DNA from: Xylanibacter rarus
GTDB taxonomy: Bacteria > Bacteroidota > Bacteroidia > Bacteroidales > Bacteroidaceae
Assembly: GCF_001275135.1 (NCBI RefSeq)
Contig: NZ_LFQU01000012.1
Location: 37,530 to 101,529 of the forward strand
Direction: 5' to 3'
Length of the DNA: 64,000 nucleotides
Numbering within the stretch: the stretch's first letter is position 1; the number at the start of each line of letters is the position of its first letter. The notes under the pieces are model-generated. The model did no database searches. It saw only the letters and a program-made list of their open reading frames with translations, and was not told the origin of the DNA. A program made the translations under genes and the position numbers. Positions 46,147 to 63,722 of the stretch are shown piece after piece.

Positions 46147-47730
46147 CTACTTGTTACCGATTTGGTTTTCCTTTGCCCAGGCTCTGGGCAGGATACCTGC
46201 GAGGTCCTTGCCGTCGCGTTGCCAGTAGGGCAGTTTGGTGAGAACGTCCTCCATCCATGTCCTCGGGTCAACCCCTGCAGCCCTGCAGGTGCCTATGAGG
46301 GAGTATACGATGGCTGCCCGATATGCAGAGGCGTCGTTGCCACAGAAGAGATAGTTCTTCCTGCCGAGTGCCAGTGGCCTGACGGCATTCTCGATGAGGT
46401 TGTTGTCGATGTTGATCCTGCCGTCGTTCACGTAGCGTGACAGCCGGGGAAGAAGACTGTAGGCATAGGCAAGGGCCTCTCCGAGCCTGCTCTTGGGCAG
46501 GACCTTCGCATAGGTTTCCTCTATCCACTTCTCGAACATCAGGATTGTGGGATAGGATATCTTCCGGCGTTGTTCCATGCGTTCTTCCGCGCTCAGGCCT
46601 TTGTCGTCCGCATCGCTCTCGACCTTGTACAGTTTTCTTATGAAGAGTATGCCCTCCATGGCAAGCCGCTCGTCCTCTTTCAGCGAGTCGACGAACTTTC
46701 TACGGACATGCGCCCAGCAGCCGTGCACGGTTATCCCGGGCATCCTTTCAAACTGGTCATACGCCTCATAGCCGTCGCATTGCACGTTACCCCGGTATCC
46801 GCCCAGGATTTCACGGGCGACGTGATGGCCACGGCTGCCCCTGTCATAGTAGAACATGACATCCCCTGTGACCGCGTCCCTGACGCACCACTCGTAACCC
46901 TTTCTGGCCTTGTGTTTCTCGTTGTCGATTACCGGTATCACGCTCTCGTCGATCTGGACGTATTCGCTTGAGAGTATCTGGCGCCGCAGGATGTCGTACA
47001 GGAGCTTGAGCTTCTCCACTGCCGCCTCATACCATCCTCCCATCGTGGAGTCGCTTACCGTTATCCCGGACTCCCTGTACTGCTGTATCAGGCGGTAGAA
47101 CGGAAGGTGGTAGACGAACTTTCCCACTATGATGTCAGACAGGACAGATGCCCCTGCCATACATCTGGCTACAGGCGCGAGGGGACGTTCCGGTGAGAGT
47201 ATCTCCCTGTCTTCAGGTCGATTTGTCTCGATGTCCGATTTGAGGATGACCTTGTGGAAGACATCCTTGTGGATGTATACATCTGCCGGCTTCTTCTCGA
47301 GACGGGAGGACTCGTCTGTGCCTATCTCGACATATTCAGCCCTGAGGTTGCCGTTTCCGTCAAGGACACCGTCCGGATAGATATGGAAGACCTTCTCCAG
47401 AAGGCCGGTGGTGTCAAGAGGCCTGCGGGAAGGCTTGGCTTTTACAGTTATCGTCTTTGTGATTGTCTTTTCCGCTTCTTCGACCTCCCTGTCAAGCTGG
47501 GCGCGTTCCTCGTCGGTGAGATGTTTCTCCTCGAACAGTGACAGCTGGGCCGGATTGACAGGAAGGGTCTTCTCGCTCATCTGGCCGAAGACCTTCTTGC
47601 GGAGCCACAGAAGCTTGTCCTGGAGATCCCGGATCATGCAGTCCTTTTCAGCAATGGCCATGCGGAGATTTTCCACCTCCGCAAGTGCTGCCGCCAGCTG
47701 TTCCTCGACTGTCATAACTACCTGTTTCAT
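46147..47730 (-). CDS. tnpC: IS66 transposase TnpC
   Basis: 527-aa DDE transposase. The N-terminal ~60 residues form a leucine-rich coiled-coil (EEQLAAALAEVENLRMAI), followed by a zinc-ribbon/IS66-type linker. The catalytic acids are likely the Asp in VQIDESVIPV, the Asp in VQCDGYEAYD and the Glu in DNNLIENAVRPLALGRKN. The length is normal, so it appears intact. Confidence 0.95.
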   Translation of the reverse strand: MKQVVMTVEEQLAAALAEVENLRMAIAEKDCMIRDLQDKLLWLRKKVFGQMSEKTLPVNPAQLSLFEEKHLTDEERAQLDREVEEAEKTITKTITVKAKPSRRPLDTTGLLEKVFHIYPDGVLDGNGNLRAEYVEIGTDESSRLEKKPADVYIHKDVFHKVILKSDIETNRPEDREILSPERPLAPVARCMAGASVLSDIIVGKFVYHLPFYRLIQQYRESGITVSDSTMGGWYEAAVEKLKLLYDILRRQILSSEYVQIDESVIPVIDNEKHKARKGYEWCVRDAVTGDVMFYYDRGSRGHHVAREILGGYRGNVQCDGYEAYDQFERMPGITVHGCWAHVRRKFVDSLKEDERLAMEGILFIRKLYKVESDADDKGLSAEERMEQRRKISYPTILMFEKWIEETYAKVLPKSRLGEALAYAYSLLPRLSRYVNDGRINIDNNLIENAVRPLALGRKNYLFCGNDASAYRAAIVYSLIGTCRAAGVDPRTWMEDVLTKLPYWQRDGKDLAGILPRAWAKENQIGNK

Positions 47731-47811
47731 CCCCTGTTTTCAATACTTGAAGGTACGAAAAAAGTGCCACATACGCAAGTCCGTGGCACTTTTTCTTCGG
47801 TTTTTCTTCGC

Positions 47812-48180
47812 CTATCTACGTAGTTTCTTCAGATTCTCAAGCCGCTGCCTGCGGCTGTCCGGCTGTTCGATTATGCCCTCTACTATCATGACCAGTTCGC
47901 TCCATTCTATAGTCCCACTGGCAGCGTCCTTCTCCAGTCCGGAGGGTATGCCGAAGGTTCCGGATTCAAGAAGCTTGCAGTACAGGACCAGACCGCCCGG
48001 CTCCCAGTGAAGAAGCTTTATCCTGTTCCTGGCCTTGTTCATGAAGATGTAGACATCACCGTTGCACGGGTCACAACCCAGCTCATTGGTCACTATCCCG
48101 CTCAGCGTGTAGTAGCTCTTCCGCATGTCGGTAGGACGGCTGTATAGCCAGTACCTCATGCTGTCATTCAGGCTAAACAT
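47812..48180 (-). CDS. tnpB: IS66 accessory protein TnpB
   Basis: 122-aa IS66 Orf2. The RPTDMRKSYYTLSGIV and GDVYIFMNKARNRIKLLHWE segments are diagnostic. It is needed with TnpA for IS66 transposition, with a role that is not fully defined. It overlaps tnpA by 8 nt, and tnpC follows after about 80 nt. Confidence 0.95.
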   Translation of the reverse strand: MFSLNDSMRYWLYSRPTDMRKSYYTLSGIVTNELGCDPCNGDVYIFMNKARNRIKLLHWEPGGLVLYCKLLESGTFGIPSGLEKDAASGTIEWSELVMIVEGIIEQPDSRRQRLENLKKLRR

Positions 48181-49135: not shown

Positions 49136-52100
49136 TTAATTGCGCGTATTGCTATCTGCAATAAGTGCCGCATCCAATAAGCATCGCTTTGTAAATTGCA
49201 TACAATCGAATGAAAAACTTAGACTATTAACTGCAAGTTGTAACATTCTATTTCTTACAGTCTTATCAAAGCCTTTTAAACACATAGTAAATATATCAGT
49301 AAATGAAATTTTTAATGTGTTTAAATCAATTTCTTTAGTAGCCAACTCTATACATGCTGTAACTGCTTGAGAGAATAGTAATGGATTTTCCTGCATATTT
49401 TGCATAATCTTAACCATATTATTTTCTTCATGATGTTTCATTTTTAGATATTCATTAATTATATATTCTTTTGTTAAGTTTACTCCTAAAAAATTATTTT
49501 CAAGCAGGAATTCTGAATAAGCTGATGAAATCCTCGAATCATTAAATAAACGAACAAATGTTTCTGAAGTAATTATATTTGTATTAGGTAATAATGCACT
49601 AATTTTTCTATCATCAGTTACAAAATAACAATTAGGCTGTAATAACATTGACATCGAACCTAATAATAATTGTCTTAAAGGAGAAACATCATCTTGAGAA
49701 AATAAAGCCAACGCCTTATCTGCAACAATATCATTACAATAATTGTTAATCCACTCGTCTATTTTATGTAAACGTTCTTTTATATCGAGATCTACATATT
49801 CACTATATCTAATCAAATTACCTGCATTAATAGCTTCAACAAATCCACTGTCAATGAATCTAATTGATAATTTGTCAACACTCTTGATATATTCGTGAAG
49901 TATAGTTGTTATGGTCATTAAGCCATTCAATATAATCCCAGTTTTTGCTGAAAATTCAGAAAAAGTAATAACTGTAGGAATATCTAGAATAAAAACTTTG
50001 TCCTCTAATTTTTGAGGTATTCTTTGTAACTCTATAGTACTATTATTAACATGTATTTTAAATGATGTGAATAATAATTTATAAAATCCTGCTAAAATAT
50101 TGTTCTCGTCCACGAGTTGGAACAGCCCTATTTCTCCATTCTCATATTGTTTGCATGCTCGTTCCCATTTTTCATTTGGAGTTAAATCGTCTTTCGACAT
50201 TTTTCTAATAAATGCTTCTAAACTTTCCAGTGGCTTATCCTTGTCTATTTGAAGCGGTATTAATTGGGGATTGCTTCCATCCTGTGCATCTTTTAAAATG
50301 TCTCCTGCTAACTTATAATATTTATTATGGATTCCAACAATAGTTACAGAAACTTTTTCAAAAGCAATTTCTGTTTCTATAACATCATTCTTATGTACAC
50401 CAAGAACCGCTTTATTAATATTACTTCCATTTATAGTTGCTTGATAAAAAACACGTTTTCCATCAATATCACACAGTACATAATTACCTTCTTCTGCAAT
50501 TTCATACTCTTTATGTGCTATAGAATATATTAATCCAGTCATTGTTTCATTATGATAAAATGTTCTCAGCTGAATATCTTCTGTAGCCTTAGCTGCCTTA
50601 TACAATAAAGATATTGCTGTTTCAAGGTAATTATTTTCAGAGAAAGCACGATAAGCTAATATTACTTCTGTTGAATTAAGATATTGTATCTCAATTGCTT
50701 TCTTTTCAAAATCACGTAATTGTTCTGGATGCAACTTGCCAAGCGTATAGATATAATGAGTGAATAAATCTGGATCTTCAGGATGACGTTCGTATAACAT
50801 TGATATAGCTGCTAGTGCATTCTCTGTATCTGCTATTTGAGAATCTAATCTATACTCAATTTTAAGTAACTGATCATCACAATAATTTCCAGCAACTCTA
50901 TTTTTTACTAAAATTCGATATAAATCAGGAGTTTTCTCCTGCATTTTGCTTAAGACAGCAATATATATTTCCCTCTTTACATCCGGGATATCCTCATTCA
51001 CAATAGGCTGCAACATATTAAAAGCCATATCTGTATCGCCATTAATAGCTAATATATTTGCAGCATAAGCCTTTAATTCATCGCAAATTTCATTTATATT
51101 ATTTTTTAAAGTAGCAATGTCTATTTTTTGTGATGCATTAAAAGCACATAATTGCAGTAAAATTTCTTTTTCTGCATCACTAGTAAATTCAAAATTTTGT
51201 AAAATTTCTTTAGTCTCTAATGCTCTATGTTTATTTATTGATTGGGCAATCAAAACTGCTATCTCACTATTTATTTTAAGATGTTCATTCTTCATTCTTT
51301 CTAATATCCATCTCAAATGCATTATATTATCAGAATGCATAGACATCATTATTGCAAATCTAATAACTGAGTCATTGATTTTCTCGCTATTAGAAGCTAT
51401 AACTGCAAATGCTTCCTCAAATCTTTTATCAAGAATTAACATTGACACTTCCATTAGAGAAAACATCTGTTTCTGCTCACCGAAATCAACTTTATTTATT
51501 TTCTGAAACTCGTCTATCCAACTTGAATCATGACTGCAAACAAAACTCCAATAATAATGCAAACATAGGATAATTGAAAAATCATTTTTTATTTCTGTAT
51601 TTGAAATCTTATCATAAAATATTTTAGAGACATTAAGAGCTGATTCAAAATCGGCTATTTGTGGAGCTTTAAAAGAAAGAACAAGAAAATTTCCAGTTTT
51701 CAGTCTATAATATGATAAAACATAAAGCCATGAGTATAACGTGGAAAAGGTTAGGTCTTCTGGAACTGATATGTCTTTATCTTCAAATAAACAATTCAAG
51801 ATTCCATATTTACTATTTAATAAACATTCAAATAATACCTCTCTAAATTCATAATCATTCCTCACTTTTTCTGGTAAATCTTTATATGTTTTTTCTTTAT
51901 CTTCTGAAACTAATACATTCTTCAGATATATCCATTTAGATTCACAATATAAACTCGATAATAAAATTTGTGCTTCATCCCATTTGTTTTCTGTTAATAA
52001 GCGACGAATTTCCCATTGAATATACACATTATTAGCTGGAAAACACATATATGCATCATGCATAAAATCAAATGCTTTTTTACGGTCTTTATAATATGTA

Positions 52101-52723
52101 ATTTGTCCTTTTTTAAATAATATATCAGCTTGTAATTCCTTATTTTCTCTTATTTCATGAAAAAAATGTGCTTCCAATTCATTTATTACGCATCTTGCCG
52201 TATTAAACTTAAGGCTTTCTATAAGTTCTGTTATAATCCCATCCAGAATACCCTTAACACCTAAAACACTATGACTTTCATTCCGAATAATAGATAAAAT
52301 ATTATTCATCTCTCTTGACAAATTGTCTAGTTTTAAAGATATATCATCGTTTAAGAGCGATAAGATATCGTTTAATTTTTCGTCTGCCAATTCTTGTCGT
52401 TGCATTATAATGAAATTGCTGCACAATTTGTCACTTTTAAGTTCCTTTACCCAAAGATGTAAAAGCTCTTTAATTTTAGGATGTATACCTTTAGATTTAT
52501 CTGTAATGAAATCTTTTAATTCAGTATAATACTTTAAAGATTCACAGTTTAGCGAATTACGTATATCTTGAGAAACATTCCATTTTTTTAATGCTTTCTT
52601 AAAGCAATCATTTATTTTATCTTCCAAAGTTTTATCACCTTGAATCCTGTTTAGTATATTAGGAACATAGCCTGCCCCAACAGAAATTGCAAAACTGAGA
52701 AAGATATCATCTAATCCCATCAT
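49136..52723 (-). CDS. 1195-aa TPR-like protein with GreA/GreB-C-like and PIN-like regions
   Basis: I do not recognise a named family. Residues ~1-180 are helical with a short hydrophobic start (IFLSFAISVGAGYVP) and coiled-coil character. Residues ~180-740 are helix pairs in TPR-like spacing (for example LFTHYIYTLGKLHPEQLRDF). Residues ~748-815 read VLGVHKNDVIETE and VTIVGI with beta-strand character, like the GreA/GreB C-terminal domain. Residues ~908-1060 look PIN-like: an early Asp in VFILDIPTVITF and a late FVTDDRKIS with acidic pairs. A PIN domain would be an RNase, so the protein could be an RNA-cutting effector with a sensor scaffold. It sits alone in a cassette between direct repeats R1 and R2, downstream of a RecQ operon. 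Function is inferred. Confidence 0.6.
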   Translation of the reverse strand: MMGLDDIFLSFAISVGAGYVPNILNRIQGDKTLEDKINDCFKKALKKWNVSQDIRNSLNCESLKYYTELKDFITDKSKGIHPKIKELLHLWVKELKSDKLCSNFIIMQRQELADEKLNDILSLLNDDISLKLDNLSREMNNILSIIRNESHSVLGVKGILDGIITELIESLKFNTARCVINELEAHFFHEIRENKELQADILFKKGQITYYKDRKKAFDFMHDAYMCFPANNVYIQWEIRRLLTENKWDEAQILLSSLYCESKWIYLKNVLVSEDKEKTYKDLPEKVRNDYEFREVLFECLLNSKYGILNCLFEDKDISVPEDLTFSTLYSWLYVLSYYRLKTGNFLVLSFKAPQIADFESALNVSKIFYDKISNTEIKNDFSIILCLHYYWSFVCSHDSSWIDEFQKINKVDFGEQKQMFSLMEVSMLILDKRFEEAFAVIASNSEKINDSVIRFAIMMSMHSDNIMHLRWILERMKNEHLKINSEIAVLIAQSINKHRALETKEILQNFEFTSDAEKEILLQLCAFNASQKIDIATLKNNINEICDELKAYAANILAINGDTDMAFNMLQPIVNEDIPDVKREIYIAVLSKMQEKTPDLYRILVKNRVAGNYCDDQLLKIEYRLDSQIADTENALAAISMLYERHPEDPDLFTHYIYTLGKLHPEQLRDFEKKAIEIQYLNSTEVILAYRAFSENNYLETAISLLYKAAKATEDIQLRTFYHNETMTGLIYSIAHKEYEIAEEGNYVLCDIDGKRVFYQATINGSNINKAVLGVHKNDVIETEIAFEKVSVTIVGIHNKYYKLAGDILKDAQDGSNPQLIPLQIDKDKPLESLEAFIRKMSKDDLTPNEKWERACKQYENGEIGLFQLVDENNILAGFYKLLFTSFKIHVNNSTIELQRIPQKLEDKVFILDIPTVITFSEFSAKTGIILNGLMTITTILHEYIKSVDKLSIRFIDSGFVEAINAGNLIRYSEYVDLDIKERLHKIDEWINNYCNDIVADKALALFSQDDVSPLRQLLLGSMSMLLQPNCYFVTDDRKISALLPNTNIITSETFVRLFNDSRISSAYSEFLLENNFLGVNLTKEYIINEYLKMKHHEENNMVKIMQNMQENPLLFSQAVTACIELATKEIDLNTLKISFTDIFTMCLKGFDKTVRNRMLQLAVNSLSFSFDCMQFTKRCLLDAALIADSNTRN

Positions 52724-52989: not shown

Positions 52990-53802
52990 TTATATAAAAT
53001 GTAGAATTATATCTATACATACTAGTACAATTAAAAATATACCTAACCACATTAGCTTTTTGTCTACGGTATTTATGGCATTCTTGATGCTTTGTTCTGA
53101 TATGTCTTGAGTATTCTTCATATCAGCCACTTCTTTCTTTATTGTTCTTTCTGTGGAAGAACCAGCAATAGATATCTTATCTAAGATTTCCAAGCTCTTA
53201 GATGTAAGAGAATTTTCTATAGTTGAAATAGATTGTTTGGTTTCTGTTTCAAATGAAGAAATGGACGAACTAATTTCAGAAACTTTAGTTTCTATTGCTT
53301 TCGATATTATTTCTTTTGCATTATCTGTATGCTTTTTCAGATTTGCATTTGAATTATCAAGAGACTGTGAAATAATCGTAATTGAATTTTGCTGCTGTAA
53401 TTCTAATTCTGATAGTTTTGTTTTCATTCCTTCGCAAACCAGTTGTATCTGTCGTGCCGCTTCAGCAATAGATTTTATGCCAAGAACTTCTGTTTGCGTC
53501 TTGAATTCATTCATTAAACTAGAAAGCTTATTCGTTGCAAATTCAATATCTGCTTTACTTGCTTTCAAGGATGTACTAAATTTGCCTGTCTCATCATTAA
53601 CAGTGGTTGCAATTTCTTCAAGACTATCTTTTATCAAATTCAATTTGTTGGAAAGACCAAAAAGGGCATTTGCATAACTTTCCAGATTCGAATTGATTGC
53701 AGTATCTGCGGCTATTACAGCTTCGACCTGTTCTTTAGCAGTCTTAATCGCTGCAAGTTCGCTTTCCATTGCTTGGAGTGTTTTTAAAATATCATTTGCC
53801 AT
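52990..53802 (-). CDS. Coiled-coil protein with C-terminal membrane anchor
   Basis: 270 aa, no known family. Residues ~1-245 are almost wholly amphipathic helix, rich in Ala, Ser, Lys and Glu with heptad-like spacing. Residues ~250-268 (MWLGIFLIVLVCIDIILHF) form one membrane helix at the very end. This is a tail-anchored layout: the coiled-coil would stay in the cytoplasm, fixed to the inner membrane. It starts 6 nt after the RecQ-type gene and is probably its partner; such proteins could multimerise or sense the membrane. The role is unknown. Confidence 0.75.
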   Translation of the reverse strand: MANDILKTLQAMESELAAIKTAKEQVEAVIAADTAINSNLESYANALFGLSNKLNLIKDSLEEIATTVNDETGKFSTSLKASKADIEFATNKLSSLMNEFKTQTEVLGIKSIAEAARQIQLVCEGMKTKLSELELQQQNSITIISQSLDNSNANLKKHTDNAKEIISKAIETKVSEISSSISSFETETKQSISTIENSLTSKSLEILDKISIAGSSTERTIKKEVADMKNTQDISEQSIKNAINTVDKKLMWLGIFLIVLVCIDIILHFI

Positions 53803-53808
53803 ATCTTA

Positions 53809-56800
53809 TTATATATTTTTTGCGTATTTATTTTTGAAATTATGTAGCCATTCCGAGTGTATTACAAGCTCTGCTTCTATTTCCCAGCTGTCTATATCTT
53901 GTAAATCTTTTTTTAATGCAACATGACGATTGTTTACATTGAGTTGCTTCTTATATTCTTCAATGATCTTATAAAATACAGTCTTGTTTGGATAGTCTTT
54001 GTATAGTGCGAGATATGCAGAAATATAACTGTCCTTGAGTTCTTTCTTAAGGATTTCATTATCACCGACACCTAAAAACAAGAGACAAAATACGTTTAGC
54101 AGATCTATGGTTGGGTTAGGACTGATAAGAGATCTTCTGATTAGTCGTACAGCACCTTGCAGATGTTTTGCATTATCAATCTGTGAACTTGAATCAAGAC
54201 TGATAATATCATCATCAATTACACGCATGTATTTATAGACAGTGTCTATAGAGTACACTGTGCCTTCTTTTGTGTCTTTAGTCAGAGAGAAAGACTTGTC
54301 CGTTTCATTGAGATTGTCATAAATGAAATCCTTTCTCGCATATTTTGAGTTAAAGTAGTAGTATATGTGATTCTTAAGTATTTCATTCTTCGTGAGCCAA
54401 TCTATTTTATCATCAGCACCAATCATACAGAAAGTTCTGATATCATCAATGGCGCGTTTTCGTTTTACGGCAATTTTATCGTATATAAATTCTGTAAGAT
54501 AGCCAAGACATTTGTGAATTTCGTTCTCACCTTTATAATTTGGCACTTTGGCAATTTCTTCAGCAGCCTTTTCCTTTGAATAATATCTTTCCAAGAAAGT
54601 TTGAAGTCCTTTGTAGTAATCACCATCTTGTTTTCTTACTGCTACAATCCTGCAACGATTCTTATTGTAATCTTTTGTAAAATCGTCAATAAGACCTATA
54701 CAGCACATACGATATATAGCCTTGTCAACATCTGCACTGTCCCGATATATTTCAAGACCTTTTGTGGCAACCGTTTCAAGCTCTCTGGTTTGAATATATT
54801 CTATTATCGTCTCTCTATCATTGCTTTTTATTATATATGCCAGTTGATCATTATTTCTCACAATAGTTCTAGTAGAGATAAATGCGACCAGTTCCGTACC
54901 ATAGTCTGCGTCCAACAGCCTCTTTAAGAAGTTAGTTACCTCTTCTGTTGGTTCTCTTAATTCTACATTATTGCCAATGAACAAAGGTACCGTCGATTTG
55001 CTTAAAAGCTCATGCATCGTACGTTTTTCTATCAGAGAACCTTTGAAGTTGTTGTTAAAGAAATACATTACTGTTTCATAATCTGCATTCATGTATTCCA
55101 GATTTTCTTTTGGAATAGTGATATTTCTTTGAGTAAGTATTTCATTAAGATCCTCAATATACTGAAAACCTTTTGCTTCTCGTGGGACATTTTTTAAATG
55201 ACATTGATTATAGAAGGTACATTGTACTTCACAAGGTCCCTTATTGCACCTATTGCATGTCTGATTACAAAGCCCGAACCCAAATCTAGTATTGCAAACA
55301 GTACATTTAAGTTTTACCATATCCCGATCAGGAGAAAACACATCCACAAACTCTTCATCAATATAAAGGTTATGTTGCTGAAGAATGTAATACAAATCTT
55401 TTTCTTTGAACCATCTTCCCTTAATGATACCCATAGGGAATTGTGATATTGGACATTTGGGACTTATTCTAACAAGTTTATAATCAGAAAGGAGAATGAC
55501 AGATAATGCCATGTGGCGATCTCTTCCCGCACGACCAGCTTCCTGTACAAAACTTTCAAGAGAACTGGAATAATTCATGTTCACTGTAAATCGTACATTT
55601 GGTTTGTCGATTCCCATACCAAAGGCTTTTGTCGCAACCATTATGGGAAGTTTATTTTCTCTGAATAATTCAAGATTTCTAAACGATTCGTTATCAATAT
55701 TCTCGCTTTCATCAAAATCTTCACCGCTACTTCCCATAAATGTGCCTACATCCATACTTTTATTAAGTTCGGATGCATTTAATTTTACGGATATGCCTGT
55801 AGCGTTTTTATGAGGACAAAATATAATACCTGATTCAGAATATTCTTCTTTTTTTTCTGTAAAATTATCAGGCATGGAAACTTCTAGTTCAGGAGCATTC
55901 GTCCGTTTTTTATTTTGTCTTACAAAATATTGTTCAGTAATGACTTTTTTATTGTTGTCATTTTGAAGTTCACGAATATATTGTGGAATTTCATTTACAT
56001 AATGTGTTAAGAACTTCTGTTTGGCCTCGTATGCAGCCCATTTATCTTTTATACTCAATGCCCTGGGGTAATCATCAAGATAGTGATTAGGGTCGTAGTA
56101 TTGGTCTACAGAATACTCAACAGGAACTTTTTCTATTTTATATTGAAGTTCCAATCTGTTTGTGTTTTCATCTCTGACGATTGTATCTGAATCCAGAGGG
56201 AATTGACCATTGCCGGAAAGTTCCCTTTCAACATCTGCAAGAACGTCAAAAGATGCTGTCGCAGTCAATCCAAAAAGAGTTATATGTTTTCTTTCCTCTG
56301 TTTGTTTAGGTAGTACATAGTTGTATAGATTACGACCTAAATGAAGGTAAGTGAATCTGAAGTCATGTCCCCATTCTGATACACAATGCACTTCATCAAT
56401 GACACCGTAAGAAAAATATACTCCCAGCTCGTGCATGTTTTTCAGTTTCTCTCTAAAACTGTATATACATAAACGTTCCGGGGAAAGGAATACGAATTGA
56501 AGAAGTGAATCCTCCATTGCTTTACCTCGCTTTTCTTTCTCTGAACCATCAATCGTAGCATTGATATAAGTACACGTATCAATTCCGGCCTTCATAAGAC
56601 CATCGTACTGATCCTTCATCAGTGAACGCAGAGGATCCACGATTACTGTAATACCTGGTTGAAGCATGGCTGCAATCTGATATGTAAGAGATTTACCACC
56701 TCCAGTCGGTAATAATCCGATAACACACTTATTCTGCAGTGCCCTACTTAAAATAGGCAATTGACCGGGACGAAACGTCTCTTTTCTGAATAAAGTCTGC

Positions 56801-57837
56801 ATGAAATACTCCAGATGGCGTTTTGTATCAGATATATCCGTATATTCACCATTAGGTTCCTTGATAACTAATGGTTTATAATCAATTACATCACTAGTAT
56901 ATACCTGTCTGTCAGATCTTTGAAAGTGTGAGGATCTGATATGGAAATAACAATCATTTTTAGCTTTGTATTCACTAAACGATATGTTTTCTACCCCAGC
57001 TCTACTCATTACAGCAATATCAATGACTAAATCATATAAATGATTCCTTATTGCATCGTTAGATTTTTCAAAGACATTAATCGACACGCCATCAGCTTGA
57101 TGGAGAGATGAAGAGACAAATTCAGGTGTACTGATGATAGTCAAGTTGACCTTAGGAAATGACAAATGGTCATAATCCTGACTTAAAACAGTCAAATGAT
57201 TAAACATTTGCTTTAAGTCTGCAATAGCCAGTGCTGCACAAGGAACATCACGTTCAAGTACAAGAATATTCCATTTAGGCGATTGAATATCAAGTTTGCC
57301 AATTAAAAGAGCTTCAACAAGAACCTTCTGAATTCTTGCTATTCCTATAGGAGATAATGTCAATTGAAGATTCTTTTTCCATGACTCATCAAATGGTTTG
57401 TTATATGCTCTTTTTACATAACGTATATAATCACTATCAAAGCAGTCAAAATCTGTATTGGAAATCTCATATTCTCTTATTCTGATGCAATTCCAAGAAC
57501 TGCGTAGAAGTGTATTTGTACGATAATCGTCATCGTCTTTGTGAAAATAGTTATGATATCTTTCACCATCTAATTCTATGACAATACCTTTTATATTATT
57601 GTCATATGGAAATTGGCAAGAAAAATCAACTCTTTGAGATTGATTTGCAGTGTTGTTGGTTATGGAACTTAAACCCCTTTGCGGACAAAAGAGTTGCTGA
57701 AACATCTTGGGAGCTACATCGCAAATATAGTGAGCCTCAAGATCAGAATCAAGGATTTCACAATTATAAGAACCTCTATTAAGAGATTGCCTGTTATCAA
57801 GAGCATGAAGAGCCAAGAAAATATCTTCACTATTCAA
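53809..57837 (-). CDS. RecQ-type helicase with N-terminal nuclease-like domain
   Basis: 1342 aa, more than twice the length of E. coli RecQ. Residues ~60-125 look like a PD-(D/E)XK/Vsr-DUF559 nuclease: RVDF (Asp71), IVIELDGERYHN (Glu88, Asp90), then LLRSSWNCIRIRE. The SF2 helicase has Walker A LLPTGGGKS (residues ~375-382), DEVH (480-483), the RecQ aromatic-rich loop SEWGHDFRF and motif VI QEAGRAGRD. A Cys-rich region follows (CTVCNTRFGFGLCNQTCNRC and more), larger than the usual RecQ zinc site. The last ~450 residues are unassigned. It overlaps the methyltransferase gene by 8 nt. It is likely an antiviral or DNA-processing effector; function is not shown. Confidence 0.85.
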   Translation of the reverse strand: MNSEDIFLALHALDNRQSLNRGSYNCEILDSDLEAHYICDVAPKMFQQLFCPQRGLSSITNNTANQSQRVDFSCQFPYDNNIKGIVIELDGERYHNYFHKDDDDYRTNTLLRSSWNCIRIREYEISNTDFDCFDSDYIRYVKRAYNKPFDESWKKNLQLTLSPIGIARIQKVLVEALLIGKLDIQSPKWNILVLERDVPCAALAIADLKQMFNHLTVLSQDYDHLSFPKVNLTIISTPEFVSSSLHQADGVSINVFEKSNDAIRNHLYDLVIDIAVMSRAGVENISFSEYKAKNDCYFHIRSSHFQRSDRQVYTSDVIDYKPLVIKEPNGEYTDISDTKRHLEYFMQTLFRKETFRPGQLPILSRALQNKCVIGLLPTGGGKSLTYQIAAMLQPGITVIVDPLRSLMKDQYDGLMKAGIDTCTYINATIDGSEKEKRGKAMEDSLLQFVFLSPERLCIYSFREKLKNMHELGVYFSYGVIDEVHCVSEWGHDFRFTYLHLGRNLYNYVLPKQTEERKHITLFGLTATASFDVLADVERELSGNGQFPLDSDTIVRDENTNRLELQYKIEKVPVEYSVDQYYDPNHYLDDYPRALSIKDKWAAYEAKQKFLTHYVNEIPQYIRELQNDNNKKVITEQYFVRQNKKRTNAPELEVSMPDNFTEKKEEYSESGIIFCPHKNATGISVKLNASELNKSMDVGTFMGSSGEDFDESENIDNESFRNLELFRENKLPIMVATKAFGMGIDKPNVRFTVNMNYSSSLESFVQEAGRAGRDRHMALSVILLSDYKLVRISPKCPISQFPMGIIKGRWFKEKDLYYILQQHNLYIDEEFVDVFSPDRDMVKLKCTVCNTRFGFGLCNQTCNRCNKGPCEVQCTFYNQCHLKNVPREAKGFQYIEDLNEILTQRNITIPKENLEYMNADYETVMYFFNNNFKGSLIEKRTMHELLSKSTVPLFIGNNVELREPTEEVTNFLKRLLDADYGTELVAFISTRTIVRNNDQLAYIIKSNDRETIIEYIQTRELETVATKGLEIYRDSADVDKAIYRMCCIGLIDDFTKDYNKNRCRIVAVRKQDGDYYKGLQTFLERYYSKEKAAEEIAKVPNYKGENEIHKCLGYLTEFIYDKIAVKRKRAIDDIRTFCMIGADDKIDWLTKNEILKNHIYYYFNSKYARKDFIYDNLNETDKSFSLTKDTKEGTVYSIDTVYKYMRVIDDDIISLDSSSQIDNAKHLQGAVRLIRRSLISPNPTIDLLNVFCLLFLGVGDNEILKKELKDSYISAYLALYKDYPNKTVFYKIIEEYKKQLNVNNRHVALKKDLQDIDSWEIEAELVIHSEWLHNFKNKYAKNI

Positions 57838-58930
57838 AGTTTTTTATTGAATAATGTATGCCACCTAAATTATCAGGTTGCAGAGTATTGCCATAATTGA
57901 CAAAGGCTTCTTCGACAAATCTGCTCGCCTTTGTTGGAAGTCCTCGGACTATAATATTACTAAGAACTGCATAAATTGGATTTACATCTTCATAGATGCT
58001 GGCTCCGATATCGAATGGTGTGGATACTTCAAAGGCAGATAAAGATTTGTATAATGCTTTTACTTTTTCAGCTTTTTCGTTATCAGAAGAGAATAATTCA
58101 TTGACGCAATCAAGACGATAGGCTGCATGAAACTGTTTTGGCGGATTGTAACTGACAAGGATTTCTCCTGTTTCATATCGCTCAATTTTAAAAATCTTGT
58201 ATCTGGCTGTGTAGCTGTAATTTTCTTTGTTGTGGCTTGCTGTCCAAATCAGTTCTGGATTCTGAAACCAATTGTAAAAAGCATCAATCCTTTGATTGTT
58301 TGCATTTAATGGTCCGACGCAAACAAAATAGTGTTCAGCGCAAATGGCATCCGCAAGTGTTTGTGCAAGTTGTTTGACATTTACGGAATCAACATCAAGT
58401 ATATTAGAAAAGAAATGTATTGTGACATCTACATCAGAGACAATATTTTCCGCTGTAATCTCGTTCACATACTTGTTCAAGTCTACAACTTTAGCAGTTT
58501 CAATATAAACTGATAAATGTAACTTTGCTCTATCTAATGCAATTTGTGATGGCTCTATGAGTAGGATACGCTCAATATCTGCGTCTATACTATTTTCTCT
58601 TAGATAATCTAAAAAGCACATTGAAGCCAAGCCTTGTCCACATCCCCAGTCTATGACCTGTAATGTCTTTCCATGATATTTCTCAGGTTGTAAATGAGAG
58701 AGGGCGGCATGAATTTTTGCTTCGTGCATTTTGCCAAAAGAATATAGATATTGACATAACTGTTCATGGGTATTAAGCAGATTCACTCCTCTATTCAATG
58801 AATAGTATATAGAATCTCTTTCGTACGTATCTAAGTCGGATATAGAATCACATGCTATGTTCCTTATCTTTTGGAAAGTAGGATGCTGTAATGCTTTGAT
58901 TTGGTTGTTATATTCTGTAATTGAAGCCAT
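57830..58930 (-). CDS. Class I SAM-dependent methyltransferase-like protein
   Basis: 366 aa. Residues ~95-125 hold motif I VIDWGCGQGLASMCFL, and the acidic end of strand 2 is in ILLIEPSQIALDRAK, so it has the Rossmann methyltransferase fold. I see no DPPY/NPPF motif of adenine or cytosine DNA methyltransferases, so an RNA, protein or small-molecule substrate, or a regulatory role, is as likely as DNA. Its start overlaps the DUF1848 stop by one base (TAATG), and its end overlaps the helicase start by 8 nt, which shows tight coupling. Confidence 0.75.
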   Translation of the reverse strand: MASITEYNNQIKALQHPTFQKIRNIACDSISDLDTYERDSIYYSLNRGVNLLNTHEQLCQYLYSFGKMHEAKIHAALSHLQPEKYHGKTLQVIDWGCGQGLASMCFLDYLRENSIDADIERILLIEPSQIALDRAKLHLSVYIETAKVVDLNKYVNEITAENIVSDVDVTIHFFSNILDVDSVNVKQLAQTLADAICAEHYFVCVGPLNANNQRIDAFYNWFQNPELIWTASHNKENYSYTARYKIFKIERYETGEILVSYNPPKQFHAAYRLDCVNELFSSDNEKAEKVKALYKSLSAFEVSTPFDIGASIYEDVNPIYAVLSNIIVRGLPTKASRFVEEAFVNYGNTLQPDNLGGIHYSIKNFE

Positions 58931-59994
58931 TATCTTCCGGTAATTGTTTCTGCATAGGGATTATTTAGATGTCTTTTCCAGTTTGCTATTGCCGTGTCTT
59001 TAGATGTATTGGCATAGCAATATTCACAAAGATGTGGGCATGTATTGTATTCTCCAATATCTTTAGCTGCCATGCAGCCACAAAGTTCACGCTGTCCGGG
59101 ATCTTTCTTATGGGCACTGATAAAATAATGGTTGTCTGGAAGTATTATGGCGTTATCTGGAATATTGATATCCCAAAAAAGGGTAGGAGCAGGAACACTT
59201 TCTATTTTGACTTTCATGAATTCCATCAGTTTAGTATCCTTCCATGCCAATTTGGTAATCAAATCACCATCGATACAACGATTGTGCTCGATGCCGTATT
59301 TGTCAATGTCTATCTTTTCTCCACAAGTTGCCAATGTGTAGTTCCAGTCTCGTTCCTTGTTCATTACAGATAGTTTCCGAGCAAATTCCTCCATAAGAAT
59401 CTCATTCCATTCATGATACGGGATTCCGTTACGTTCAAGATTTGACTTGACTTTTTTATATGTTTTGATGTCAGCATAGCTGAAAACCAATTTTTCAGTA
59501 TATCCTTTAAGTTGATCCCCAACTTTTTGCACCTTACTTAGCAGGTCATCAATTGATATATCATCGGTAAGAATCAAAGGATCAAATCTCCAAATAACAG
59601 AGCCTTTACCTAGATGTTTTACTAACGTTTTAAAAGTATCTATTCGCGAAGCCAATGAAGGAACTTTCTCTAGCTTTTCAGTTTCGTAGTCATTTAACGT
59701 ATATTGAATGTAACACTTTATATTCTTTTCTTCAAGAATATGAAGATAATCCAATAATGGGCGTGGATTCTTTGACCAGAAAACAATGAATCTTGTTTGG
59801 GCGTATGAAACATAGGATTTGATACCATTAAACGGATTTGTCCATGCTGAGTACCCTTTTTTTAATCGGTCAAAAAACCAGTCTGAATAGAAAGCCGGAA
59901 TATCAGTACTTCTACTAGCAGATACGATTAAAGGTGCTTGCGCATTTACAAATTGTCCTTCTACGTTTATTTCTATTTGTGACCAAGTTGCCAT
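58930..59994 (-). CDS. DUF1848 family protein
   Basis: 354 aa. SASRSTDIPAFYSDWF, FIVFWSKNPRPLL and WRFDPLIL are DUF1848 hallmarks. The C-terminus has a cysteine cluster, CGCMAAKDIGEYNTCPHLCE followed at once by YCYAN, which probably binds an Fe-S cluster. The family is thought to be related to spore-photoproduct-lyase/radical-SAM-type folds, but its reaction is unknown. It is the first gene of the four-gene operon. No good promoter is visible in the 174 bp before it, so it may be read from the XRE promoter at 61.7 kb. Confidence 0.88.
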   Translation of the reverse strand: MATWSQIEINVEGQFVNAQAPLIVSASRSTDIPAFYSDWFFDRLKKGYSAWTNPFNGIKSYVSYAQTRFIVFWSKNPRPLLDYLHILEEKNIKCYIQYTLNDYETEKLEKVPSLASRIDTFKTLVKHLGKGSVIWRFDPLILTDDISIDDLLSKVQKVGDQLKGYTEKLVFSYADIKTYKKVKSNLERNGIPYHEWNEILMEEFARKLSVMNKERDWNYTLATCGEKIDIDKYGIEHNRCIDGDLITKLAWKDTKLMEFMKVKIESVPAPTLFWDINIPDNAIILPDNHYFISAHKKDPGQRELCGCMAAKDIGEYNTCPHLCEYCYANTSKDTAIANWKRHLNNPYAETITGR

Positions 59995-60168: not shown

Positions 60169-61470
60169 CTATAGTTGAATTTTTCCCGAATGCAATTTTT
60201 TTATCAAATCTTCATATATGGTAATTAATCCATTTGTTATCAACCCGTTTCGTTCAATCATCCTAAAAGGTGAAGATTCTTTCAAGGATATAATGAGATC
60301 ATTTATTATTTCTGCCGGCTGCATTTCGAACATCATATATTCAAACATGGAGTCACCTTCTTTCCAAAAATCACTGTGACATCCATAATTATACTTTTCC
60401 TAGGCGAAATAAAGAGCAATCTTATACATTTCAAGCATTTGGTTATTCTTAATTGCTAATGCAGAATCGCCATTTCTTTTGCCGATTTTTGTGAATTCAT
60501 TTTGAATTTTTGAAATTGCATCAATTAAAGCTTTGATAAATTCTTTGGATATATCATTGACTCGACTATTATTACTAGTTGACAACTTATCTAAGAAAGT
60601 CGTATCGATAATATTTTCATCTATTTCATAGTAATTTGAATCTCCATTTATAGAGTTCAAATATTTATTTTCAATTACACTAATTAAATTGTTAATGGTT
60701 TCTTCCCCGTAATAAGAACGTGGAATACCAATCAAAGGAGAATCTGATATAGCTTCATTTATTGCATCTAATGCTTTTTGAGCAATTTTGTATGCTCTGT
60801 CAATATTATTTATCTTGTAATTACATAGAGCAATATACATTAGAATTTTGGGTCTATAGGCAGATGTGTGATTTTCATGTTCTTCAAGGTCTAACTTATT
60901 GCACTTCACAAAAAGTTTAAGGGTCTCTACTATGAATTTTGCCTGATCGAGATTACTAACATTTGAATTGTCGTTGTATAATTTTACAGCTCGTTCCATA
61001 AGTGGGTCCAGGGACAGCATACCATAACTTTTTAATTCATTCATAATACTTTGAGCTGTGTCTAATGTCTTTTTGCATTCCTCATGATGGGAGTTCTGTT
61101 GGTCTAATTTTTCTAATTTCCCGTAGAATTCTATAATTCTGTCAGGATTGGTCATTGCGAATCTAACATAATCAATAGTTCCATTTGAAAAAAATAGATG
61201 GCACACTATCGGAATTGACGGATTAAAATCAGATGTATTATGAACATATTGGATCCTATCAGCTAATATCATTGAACCATCCATTTCAAATTCGAAATTT
61301 TTAAGAATACGAAGTTCTTCAACGTTGCTTAAAAAAACGCGCATTAGATCTCCAGAAAACTCGGCTGTAATGACACAATTTATATAACCTTGATTAATGC
61401 AATATCCACCTTGCCACTCCTCGTAACGATTAGCGGCGAAAACAAAATTACGTTTGAAATATCTATCCAT
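60169..61470 (-). pseudogene. Unknown island protein interrupted by an amber codon
   Basis: From the ATG at 61470 the frame reads 356 codons to a TAG at 60400-60402, then continues in frame for 76 more codons (EKYNYGCHSDFWKEGDSMFE onward) to a second TAG at 60169-60171. The extension has coding character (acidic, amphipathic helix), so the first TAG is probably a CAG-to-TAG nonsense change. The N-terminal ~120 residues are mixed alpha/beta; the middle has TPR-like helices (ILMYIALCNYKINNIDRAYK). No family is recognised. It starts 2 nt after the XRE regulator stop and so belongs to its operon. Confidence 0.65.
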
Positions 61471-61472
61471 AA

Positions 61473-61697
61473 TTAATGAGAGTCAAAATTAGAATCATTT
61501 TTTATAAGTAACTCACTTACATCCATCTGTAAAAGTTTGGCAATTTTATATAGCGTTTCAATTGATGGCTGACTTGCGTTTGATGTCCAACGACTAATGG
61601 TTACCTCTGATTTGCCAAGTTGATCGCTTAACCACTTTCCTGTTTTTTGTCTTTCAAGCAATGCGATTTTGATACGATTATAAGCAACTTTTTCCAT
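61473..61697 (-). CDS. XRE-family HTH regulator
   Basis: 74 aa from the ATG at 61697 (MEKVAYNRIKIALLERQKTG). The HTH lies in KWLSDQLGKSEVTISRWTSN. This short regulator type is common beside restriction-modification and other defence genes in Bacteroidota, where it acts like a controller protein. I prefer 61697 to the codon at 61724, which would lie at the transcription start. It is transcribed just ahead of the amber-interrupted gene and perhaps the RecQ operon. Confidence 0.9.
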   Translation of the reverse strand: MEKVAYNRIKIALLERQKTGKWLSDQLGKSEVTISRWTSNASQPSIETLYKIAKLLQMDVSELLIKNDSNFDSH

Positions 61698-61714
61698 AAT
61701 GAATTTTAAAGTAT

Positions 61715-61753
61715 TACGATACAAAGTTATCGTATTTTGATAATATGGACAAA
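61715..61753 (-). promoter_or_regulatory. Autoregulated promoter of the XRE operon
   Basis: On the minus strand, TTTG (61753-61750), a 20-nt spacer and TAACTTTG (61729-61722) form a perfect Bacteroidota promoter. The -7 element lies within the perfect inverted repeat TACGATA-N6-TATCGTA (61715-61721 and 61728-61734). A dimeric XRE protein bound there would block its own promoter. The expected transcript starts only about 20 nt before the ATG. Confidence 0.75.
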
Positions 61754-63434: not shown

Positions 63435-63722
63435 ATGTTGTACGATTATAGAAAAGAATACAAAACACCTATGTCATTGGTGCTGGAGAACGGTTTTTCT
63501 ATTGAAGGGGAGTTTATTGACTTGCGTATCGCCACGGATACGCTTCCAGAGGGTAAGGTGTGGTATCATATCCGGCATTCCGATGATGATTGGTCCGAAC
63601 TGGCATCATTGAAGAATGGCTGTGTGGTGGTCAATTTTTGTGGTACATTTGTTTGCGACCCTATCTCAGATTTTCCTCTTGGTTCAGAACTGGAAATAAC
63701 GGACTGGACATATCTGAATTGA
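63435..63722 (+). CDS. Small hypothetical protein
   Basis: 95 aa, acidic, with predicted mainly beta-strand character (SLVLENGFSIEGEFIDL, WYHIRHSDDDW). It follows the previous gene closely and is probably co-transcribed. It recalls small proteins of unknown function on Bacteroidota conjugative elements. Confidence 0.6.
   Translation: MLYDYRKEYKTPMSLVLENGFSIEGEFIDLRIATDTLPEGKVWYHIRHSDDDWSELASLKNGCVVVNFCGTFVCDPISDFPLGSELEITDWTYLN

Follow-up and report, generated by a model that had tools for sequence, protein, structure and literature searches.

Two of the arrangements already described that come closest to the locus considered here are DarTG and ALKBH3-ASCC3. DarTG, a writer-eraser toxin-antitoxin, joins a DNA-modifying enzyme to a mark-removing enzyme that holds it harmless; ALKBH3-ASCC3 is a case of helicase-coupled dealkylation. 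The subject of this analysis is an operon in a 64,000-nucleotide (nt) stretch of Xylanibacter rarus DNA (contig NZ_LFQU01000012.1 of assembly GCF_001275135.1, positions 37,530-101,529 of the forward strand; hereafter the window), which encodes a DUF1848 protein, a methyltransferase, a RecQ-type helicase and a tail-anchored coiled coil. Its proposed logic is like that of DarTG, and its versions in aerobes, like ALKBH3-ASCC3, combine a helicase with an ALKBH3-like dealkylase. The heart of the system is a methyltransferase paired with either DUF1848 or AlkB, which can replace each other; the pair is found with further partners and by itself as well, and the methyltransferase is the hub. The genes and domains of the window operon are as follows (aa, amino acids; SAM, S-adenosylmethionine).

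58930-59994, minus strand: DUF1848 gene, 354 aa (Pfam DUF1848, E 2.9e-87)
57830-58930, minus strand: methyltransferase gene, 366 aa
58181-58930, minus strand: Rsm22/METTL17-like SAM-binding methyltransferase domain, motif DWGCGQG, the proposed writer
57842-58141, minus strand: C-terminal ~100 aa of the methyltransferase gene, equivalent to the RecQ-family N-terminal domain
53809-57837, minus strand: RecQ gene, 1342 aa, TTG start
57418-57837, minus strand: N-terminal PD-(D/E)XK-type nuclease domain of RecQ, motifs RVDF ... IELDGERYH
56833-57390, minus strand: RecQ middle domain, residues ~150-335, no Pfam match
55468-56805, minus strand: RecQ helicase core, motifs GLLPTGGGKS, DEVH and QEAGRAGRD intact
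55192-55305, minus strand: Cys-rich stretch after the helicase core
52990-53802, minus strand: coiled-coil gene, 270 aa
53014-53070, minus strand: hydrophobic tail of the coiled-coil protein

The four genes sit where an earlier note on this DNA had placed them, and the spacings that it gave (overlaps of 1 and 8 nt, then a gap of 6 nt) are exact. To follow the operon across genomes, 317 relatives of the methyltransferase were found in GTDB genomes, and 80 were kept and fetched. Methyltransferase and RecQ form one protein in 32 of these 80, and every one of the 32 loci has DUF1848 or AlkB nearby: DUF1848 lies directly upstream or is fused in 26, an AlkB gene alone takes the exact place of DUF1848 in five, and DUF1848 is found two genes downstream in the remaining one (L108). 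AlkB stands beside DUF1848 as well in L096, L098 and L101. A tail-anchored coiled-coil gene, defined as one encoding a protein poor in Pro and Gly that ends in a hydrophobic stretch, follows in 27 of the 28 RecQ-fused loci with a readable downstream gene (28 of 35 loci), the exception (L092) being a short open reading frame (ORF) whose start resembles the coiled coil; such a gene follows only 1 of 65 other methyltransferase genes. The window protein has one hydrophobic stretch near its C-terminus, at residues 245-263 of 270 (Kyte-Doolittle 1.85), and direct homologues in L078, L079, L081, L083, L095 and L099.

The gene content of these loci shows a conserved operon consisting of DUF1848 or AlkB, an Rsm22-like methyltransferase joined to RecQ, an optional nuclease and a tail-anchored coiled coil, and from these comparisons we are nearly certain of its composition and conservation. 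The earlier note had staked its proposal on co-occurrence of the genes in other genomes, which the neighbourhood counts (32/32 and 27/28) bear out, with a recurrence far above what chance would give. Its four-gene unit, however, is not the natural form, as the usual unit has three genes, with methyltransferase and RecQ fused in 32/32 loci.

RecQ-fused loci occur in Bacteroidota, Bacillota, Actinomycetota, Deferribacterota and Chlorobiota, and with Campylobacterota the modular core is found in at least six phyla. Distribution within the order is patchy: the methyltransferase has matches in 41 of 393 genomes, the window's own included, and none in two same-genus and three same-family genomes listed. 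DUF1848 and the methyltransferase are also found with an SF1 helicase carrying a PIN domain (L117), with ART and UvrD-like proteins (L048), with a YhcG-type nuclease (L116), with Sel1 and LRR repeats (L043, L044, L123, L124) and as a bare pair (L055). Another arrangement (L133:9992-14390, L121, L135, L143) comprises DUF1848, a methyltransferase extended at its C-terminus by a long fused part and, with an overlap of 14 nt, a gene for 213 aa, which in L133 encodes a second, classical radical-SAM protein (Pfam 1.2e-18). Weak partial relatives were present in one phage record and two plasmid records. Two IMG/VR viral contigs (L158, L159) encode DUF1848 with a methyltransferase of another type, and phages may therefore carry such a pair.

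The exchange of DUF1848 for AlkB was analyzed in 107 distinct methyltransferase loci, in which duplicate sequences had been merged before classification and partners were sought within four genes. One or both partners were present in 89 of the 107: 69 loci had DUF1848 only, 14 AlkB only and 6 both, while 18 had neither. Most members of Flavobacteriales and Cytophagales are aerobic, and those of Bacteroidales anaerobic. The 17 Flavobacteriales/Cytophagales loci comprise 14 with AlkB only, two with both and one unreadable at a contig edge, whereas the other 90 comprise 69 with DUF1848 only, four with both, 17 with neither and none with AlkB only (Fisher p for AlkB 1.8e-14, kinship ignored). On a tree of 108 methyltransferase domains, the DUF1848 and AlkB states require six changes. 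Five independent pairs on the starred branches changed in the expected direction 4.3 times on average and never in the opposite one, a test whose median p of 0.125 reflects the fact that five pairs are too few to reach significance.

After the first five AlkB loci had been seen, AlkB was predicted in advance for aerobic orders, and 299 and 291 genomes from the orders to which a Chryseobacterium and a Runella belong were searched. All eight new Flavobacteriales/Cytophagales loci had AlkB nearby; one also had DUF1848, and four were bare methyltransferase-AlkB pairs. The exchange is seen in RecQ, SF1-helicase, four-gene and stand-alone contexts. In seven genomes with AlkB-only operons (G393-G397, G399, G400), DUF1848 was found nowhere in the genome. 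The 18 loci lacking both partners belong to 17 genomes, of which 13 contain DUF1848 (in some cases next to the locus at a contig edge, and in one with a score short of the family cut-off), two contain AlkB and two neither. None of 198 genomes has both DUF1848 (35 genomes) and AlkB (43 genomes), although 32 of the 35 come from one family and the comparison is accordingly weak. Taken together, these data lead us to favor, with some reserve, the view that DUF1848 and AlkB do the same job.

The AlkB partner is a 2OG-FeII_Oxy_2 dioxygenase (Pfam 4.3e-32 and 6.8e-30), and the nearest solved proteins are ALKBH3 (2.9e-38) and then ALKBH2 (1.3e-31). H126, D128, H179, R195 and R201, which correspond to the catalytic residues of E. 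coli AlkB, are conserved in 29/29 rows (20 distinct genes). A Cytophagales-order genome carries a three-gene unit of methyltransferase, AlkB and HhH-GPD DNA glycosylase (L178:6037-8401). For DUF1848, the best VIA structural matches, at modest Z, are spore photoproduct lyase and other radical-SAM enzymes, and the CxxxCxxC cluster motif used as a test for radical-SAM proteins is present as C319, C323 and C326 in 59/60 rows, at the C-terminus and not the N-terminus. Both observations support the Fe-S/radical-type nature that the earlier note had assigned to DUF1848, which is predicted to be a permuted radical-SAM-type Fe-S enzyme and a putative eraser. Distant stand-alone DUF1848 genes directly follow umuC in 2 of 15 loci (L200:4124-7162, L201:4055-6903) and lie near it in a third (L211), and in L200, where this was tested, umuD precedes umuC-DUF1848. 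This gene order suggests SOS-linked DNA repair for the copies beside umuC; the other 12 stand-alone loci have no umuC context.

By structure, the methyltransferase fold is Rsm22/METTL17-like: its eight best structural matches are all to METTL17/Rsm22 as seen on the mitochondrial small subunit, and the list for L079 spans the methyltransferase part alone. Sequence profiles gave no match to this family. In Pfam only Methyltransf_23 was detected, at E 0.08, no family rose above its cut-off, and no Rsm22 model was among the Pfam/NCBIfam matches at E<=0.1.

The helicase core of the RecQ protein is clearly recognized (DEAD 1.2e-18, Helicase_C 4e-12, recQ_fam 2.3e-59), and the middle domain is conserved, being present in 49/49 rows of the family alignment. 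In the Cys-rich stretch the Cys residues are conserved in most fused relatives and probably bind metal. Pfam REase_MTES_1575 matches the nuclease domain at E 1e-4, with 22.7 bits, and does not reach its cut-off of 38.2. The RecQ-type helicase with a nuclease-like N-terminus described in the earlier note holds for the helicase; the nuclease is present in the window but is not constant, as it is missing in 14 of 29 fused methyltransferase-RecQ proteins. Helicase motifs are intact in all fused proteins read over them except that of L040 (L040:9623-13468), where both methyltransferase and helicase motifs are degenerate and the tail-anchored gene is present; in its genome (G352) neither DUF1848 nor AlkB was found. 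RecQ proteins without the methyltransferase also exist, and since all 18 of these precede a tail-anchored coiled-coil gene, nuclease-RecQ and anchor appear to be a module of their own. Many of them (L058, L067, L069-L076) have lost the Walker A, DEAH and nuclease motifs and kept full length and a tail-anchored partner, as if the catalytically dead copies still had a role; L061, L063, L064, L066 and L068 retain all three motifs.

The product of 57842-58141 matches approximately residues 2-101 of stand-alone RecQ proteins, and because of this match the final ~100 aa encoded by the methyltransferase gene are assigned to the RecQ family. In no other case seen are the two proteins split; in the window their reading frames lie one step apart and meet at 57830-57837. 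A programmed -1 frameshift that would rejoin them is unsupported, as the -1 frame hits a stop and RecQ is encoded in a different one. Fusion in 35/35 RecQ-type loci of the merged set, as opposed to separate frames here, could mean that the window copy is a decayed and possibly non-working remnant. We regard this as rather unlikely, as both halves are complete with intact motifs, the split falls at a domain border, the 8-nt overlap could permit coupled translation, and an error in sequencing a short run of A could also account for the frame step.

We compared the surroundings of 27 RecQ-type loci with control stretches. At E<=1e-20 the 135 neighbouring proteins matched 170 PADLOC families and 135 control proteins matched 2, both figures counting families and not distinct matching proteins. 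Controls were taken from 18 stretches in 14 genomes, 13 of which hold RecQ-type loci; 3 of 138 neighbour proteins (excluded for size) and 1 of 136 control proteins were left out. Matches among the neighbours include PDC-S02, BREX PglZ and type I restriction-modification, and the model mad3 is common to neighbours (5) and controls (3). The neighbourhoods are defence-rich, as would be expected around an anti-phage system, and the operon probably has a defence role. The multi-gene antiphage logic of the earlier note is retained to the extent that a recurrent unnamed system lies in such neighbourhoods; the four-gene architecture it gave is not.

As a tentative model, the locus would be a mobile system of defence, built around a writer and an eraser of methylation on nucleic acid. 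The coiled coil would hold RecQ at the inner membrane, where RecQ would open incoming or replicating phage DNA and supply single strands. Onto the exposed strand the methyltransferase would put blocking methyl groups, on the base-pairing face, and the nuclease, where present, would cut it. The eraser would strip the same kind of methyl from host DNA and so keep the writer harmless until infection, using Fe-S/SAM radical chemistry (DUF1848) in anaerobes and O2 (AlkB) in aerobes. Removal of the partner methyltransferase's mark is a possible, if far from assured, account of the job that DUF1848 and AlkB share. An almost evenly balanced proposal is that DUF1848 is an O2-independent radical-SAM counterpart of AlkB, a direct-reversal nucleobase dealkylase of anaerobes, within a writer-eraser module placed on several effectors (RecQ, nuclease and anchor; SF1 helicase and PIN; ART and UvrD-like; Sel1/LRR), with AlkB swapped in on each entry into aerobic life.

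Writer-eraser immunity is favored because the methyltransferase almost never occurs without DUF1848 or AlkB, while RecQ-anchor, DUF1848 and AlkB each occur without the methyltransferase. Alternatively, the operon could carry out helicase-coupled DNA dealkylation repair on mobile elements and not be primarily antiviral, RecQ opening damaged DNA for direct reversal by AlkB or DUF1848, much as human ASCC3 reportedly opens DNA for ALKBH3, and the methyltransferase being auxiliary or regulatory. The resemblance of the AlkB partner to ALKBH3/2, the glycosylase unit of L178 and the umuC genes beside or near DUF1848 in L200, L201 and L211 fit such a role. It would leave a constant, SAM-motif-bearing methyltransferase hub unexplained, however, and the patchy distribution, the defence neighbours and the 12 of 15 stand-alone DUF1848 loci lacking umuC also count against it, which makes it unlikely.

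The target might instead be RNA (rRNA, tRNA or phage RNA), with helicase and anchor as accessories, as in translation-arrest immunity. Structural entries on the mitochondrial small subunit and the PIN domain among the other partners (L117) point in this direction, and ALKBH3 acts on RNA too; but RecQ and PD-(D/E)XK domains are normally DNA enzymes, and DNA is also indicated by the glycosylase and umuC contexts, so that an RNA target seems distinctly improbable. Lastly, methyltransferase and DUF1848 could mark self with a complex modification while nuclease-RecQ destroys unmarked DNA. Such restriction-modification would suit a methyltransferase, helicase and nuclease joined in one protein, and the DpdF-like helicase scores. 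We consider it very unlikely and reject it as the main explanation, as half of the fused proteins (14/29) have lost the nuclease and kept their other domains, nuclease-RecQ and anchor exist without methyltransferase or DUF1848 in the 18 stand-alone loci, an ALKBH3-like dealkylase would remove and not build a mark, and there is no specificity subunit.

Removal of 1-methyladenine and 3-methylcytosine by AlkB depends on O2. According to a review, Archaea have no known AlkB homologue (PMC8307549). If DUF1848 reverses such damage directly and independently of O2, it would fill that gap, and the system offers a hint of the way in which microbes living without oxygen might reverse methylation damage to DNA. 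Its repeated exchange with AlkB beside one methyltransferase turns DUF1848 into a specific candidate that can be tested on a defined class of substrates. If the defence role is true, the system would represent immunity in which base methylation is written and erased, its modular core occurring with several effectors in at least six phyla.

Outside the operon, the window contains the following features.

63435-63722: LPD28-domain protein, near the operon
61473-61724, minus strand: XRE regulator upstream of the operon (HTH_3 3.3e-9)
60400-61470, minus strand: 356-aa ORF upstream of the operon, an accessory gene, loosely associated
49136-52723, minus strand: 1195-aa protein, the PIN-type effector candidate of the earlier note
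46147-48180, minus strand: IS66 genes, beyond the 1195-aa protein on the side away from XRE

These bear out the XRE regulator and the insertion sequence noted earlier, and the LPD28-domain protein is likewise confirmed nearby. The 1195-aa protein, the PIN-type candidate, has no Pfam, PADLOC or NCBIfam match and no relative among the fetched loci. The XRE gene is a possible regulator of the operon; XRE homologues lie directly upstream of DUF1848 in L015, L050, L135, L143 and L148, none of RecQ type. The 356-aa ORF has two matches in L039-L159: that of L102 (E 1.6e-91) adjoins the coiled-coil gene, and that of L107 is shorter and lies upstream. At 54% GC against 27-40% in adjoining DNA, the composition of the IS66 genes suggests recent arrival. 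Promoter and terminator scans gave no excess over shuffled sequence (78 sites vs. 71, and 6 vs. 5.7).

When PADLOC 2.0 was run on eight window proteins, it detected DUF1848 (model RTasDUF1848, E 1.4e-37) and generic helicase models, and nothing else. A search of open-licence literature found no mention of DUF1848 or PF08902, nor of Rsm22 together with AlkB, and DUF1848, RecQ and defence were not found together; the view that no named system has this set is consistent with both searches. Defence-associated reverse transcriptase (DRT) systems with RT-associated DUF1848 have the DUF1848 protein in common with the operon, but no reverse transcriptase model matched any of the eight proteins. PsyrTA shares the RecQ-type helicase core, through which PsyrT was matched (PADLOC E 2.9e-49); no PsyrA match was obtained among the eight, and in place of its phosphoribosyltransferase-like antitoxin the operon has the methyltransferase, DUF1848/AlkB and the tail-anchored coiled coil. 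The window RecQ scores best with DpdF models (PADLOC E 2.9e-64), again via the shared core, but the eight proteins gave only DpdF/DpdJ helicase-core matches, and NCBIfam DpdF reached 115 of the 550 bits needed, which argues against membership in Dpd (dpdA-K). Neither a DarT ADP-ribosyltransferase nor a DarG macrodomain is present in the eight proteins, and DarTG differs from the operon in using ADP-ribosylation, as opposed to the methylation proposed here, and in its folds, while helicase and membrane anchor are added here. Compared with ALKBH3-ASCC3, the helicase is a RecQ and not of ASCC3 type, a methyltransferase, a nuclease and a membrane anchor are added, and DUF1848 mostly takes the place of AlkB.

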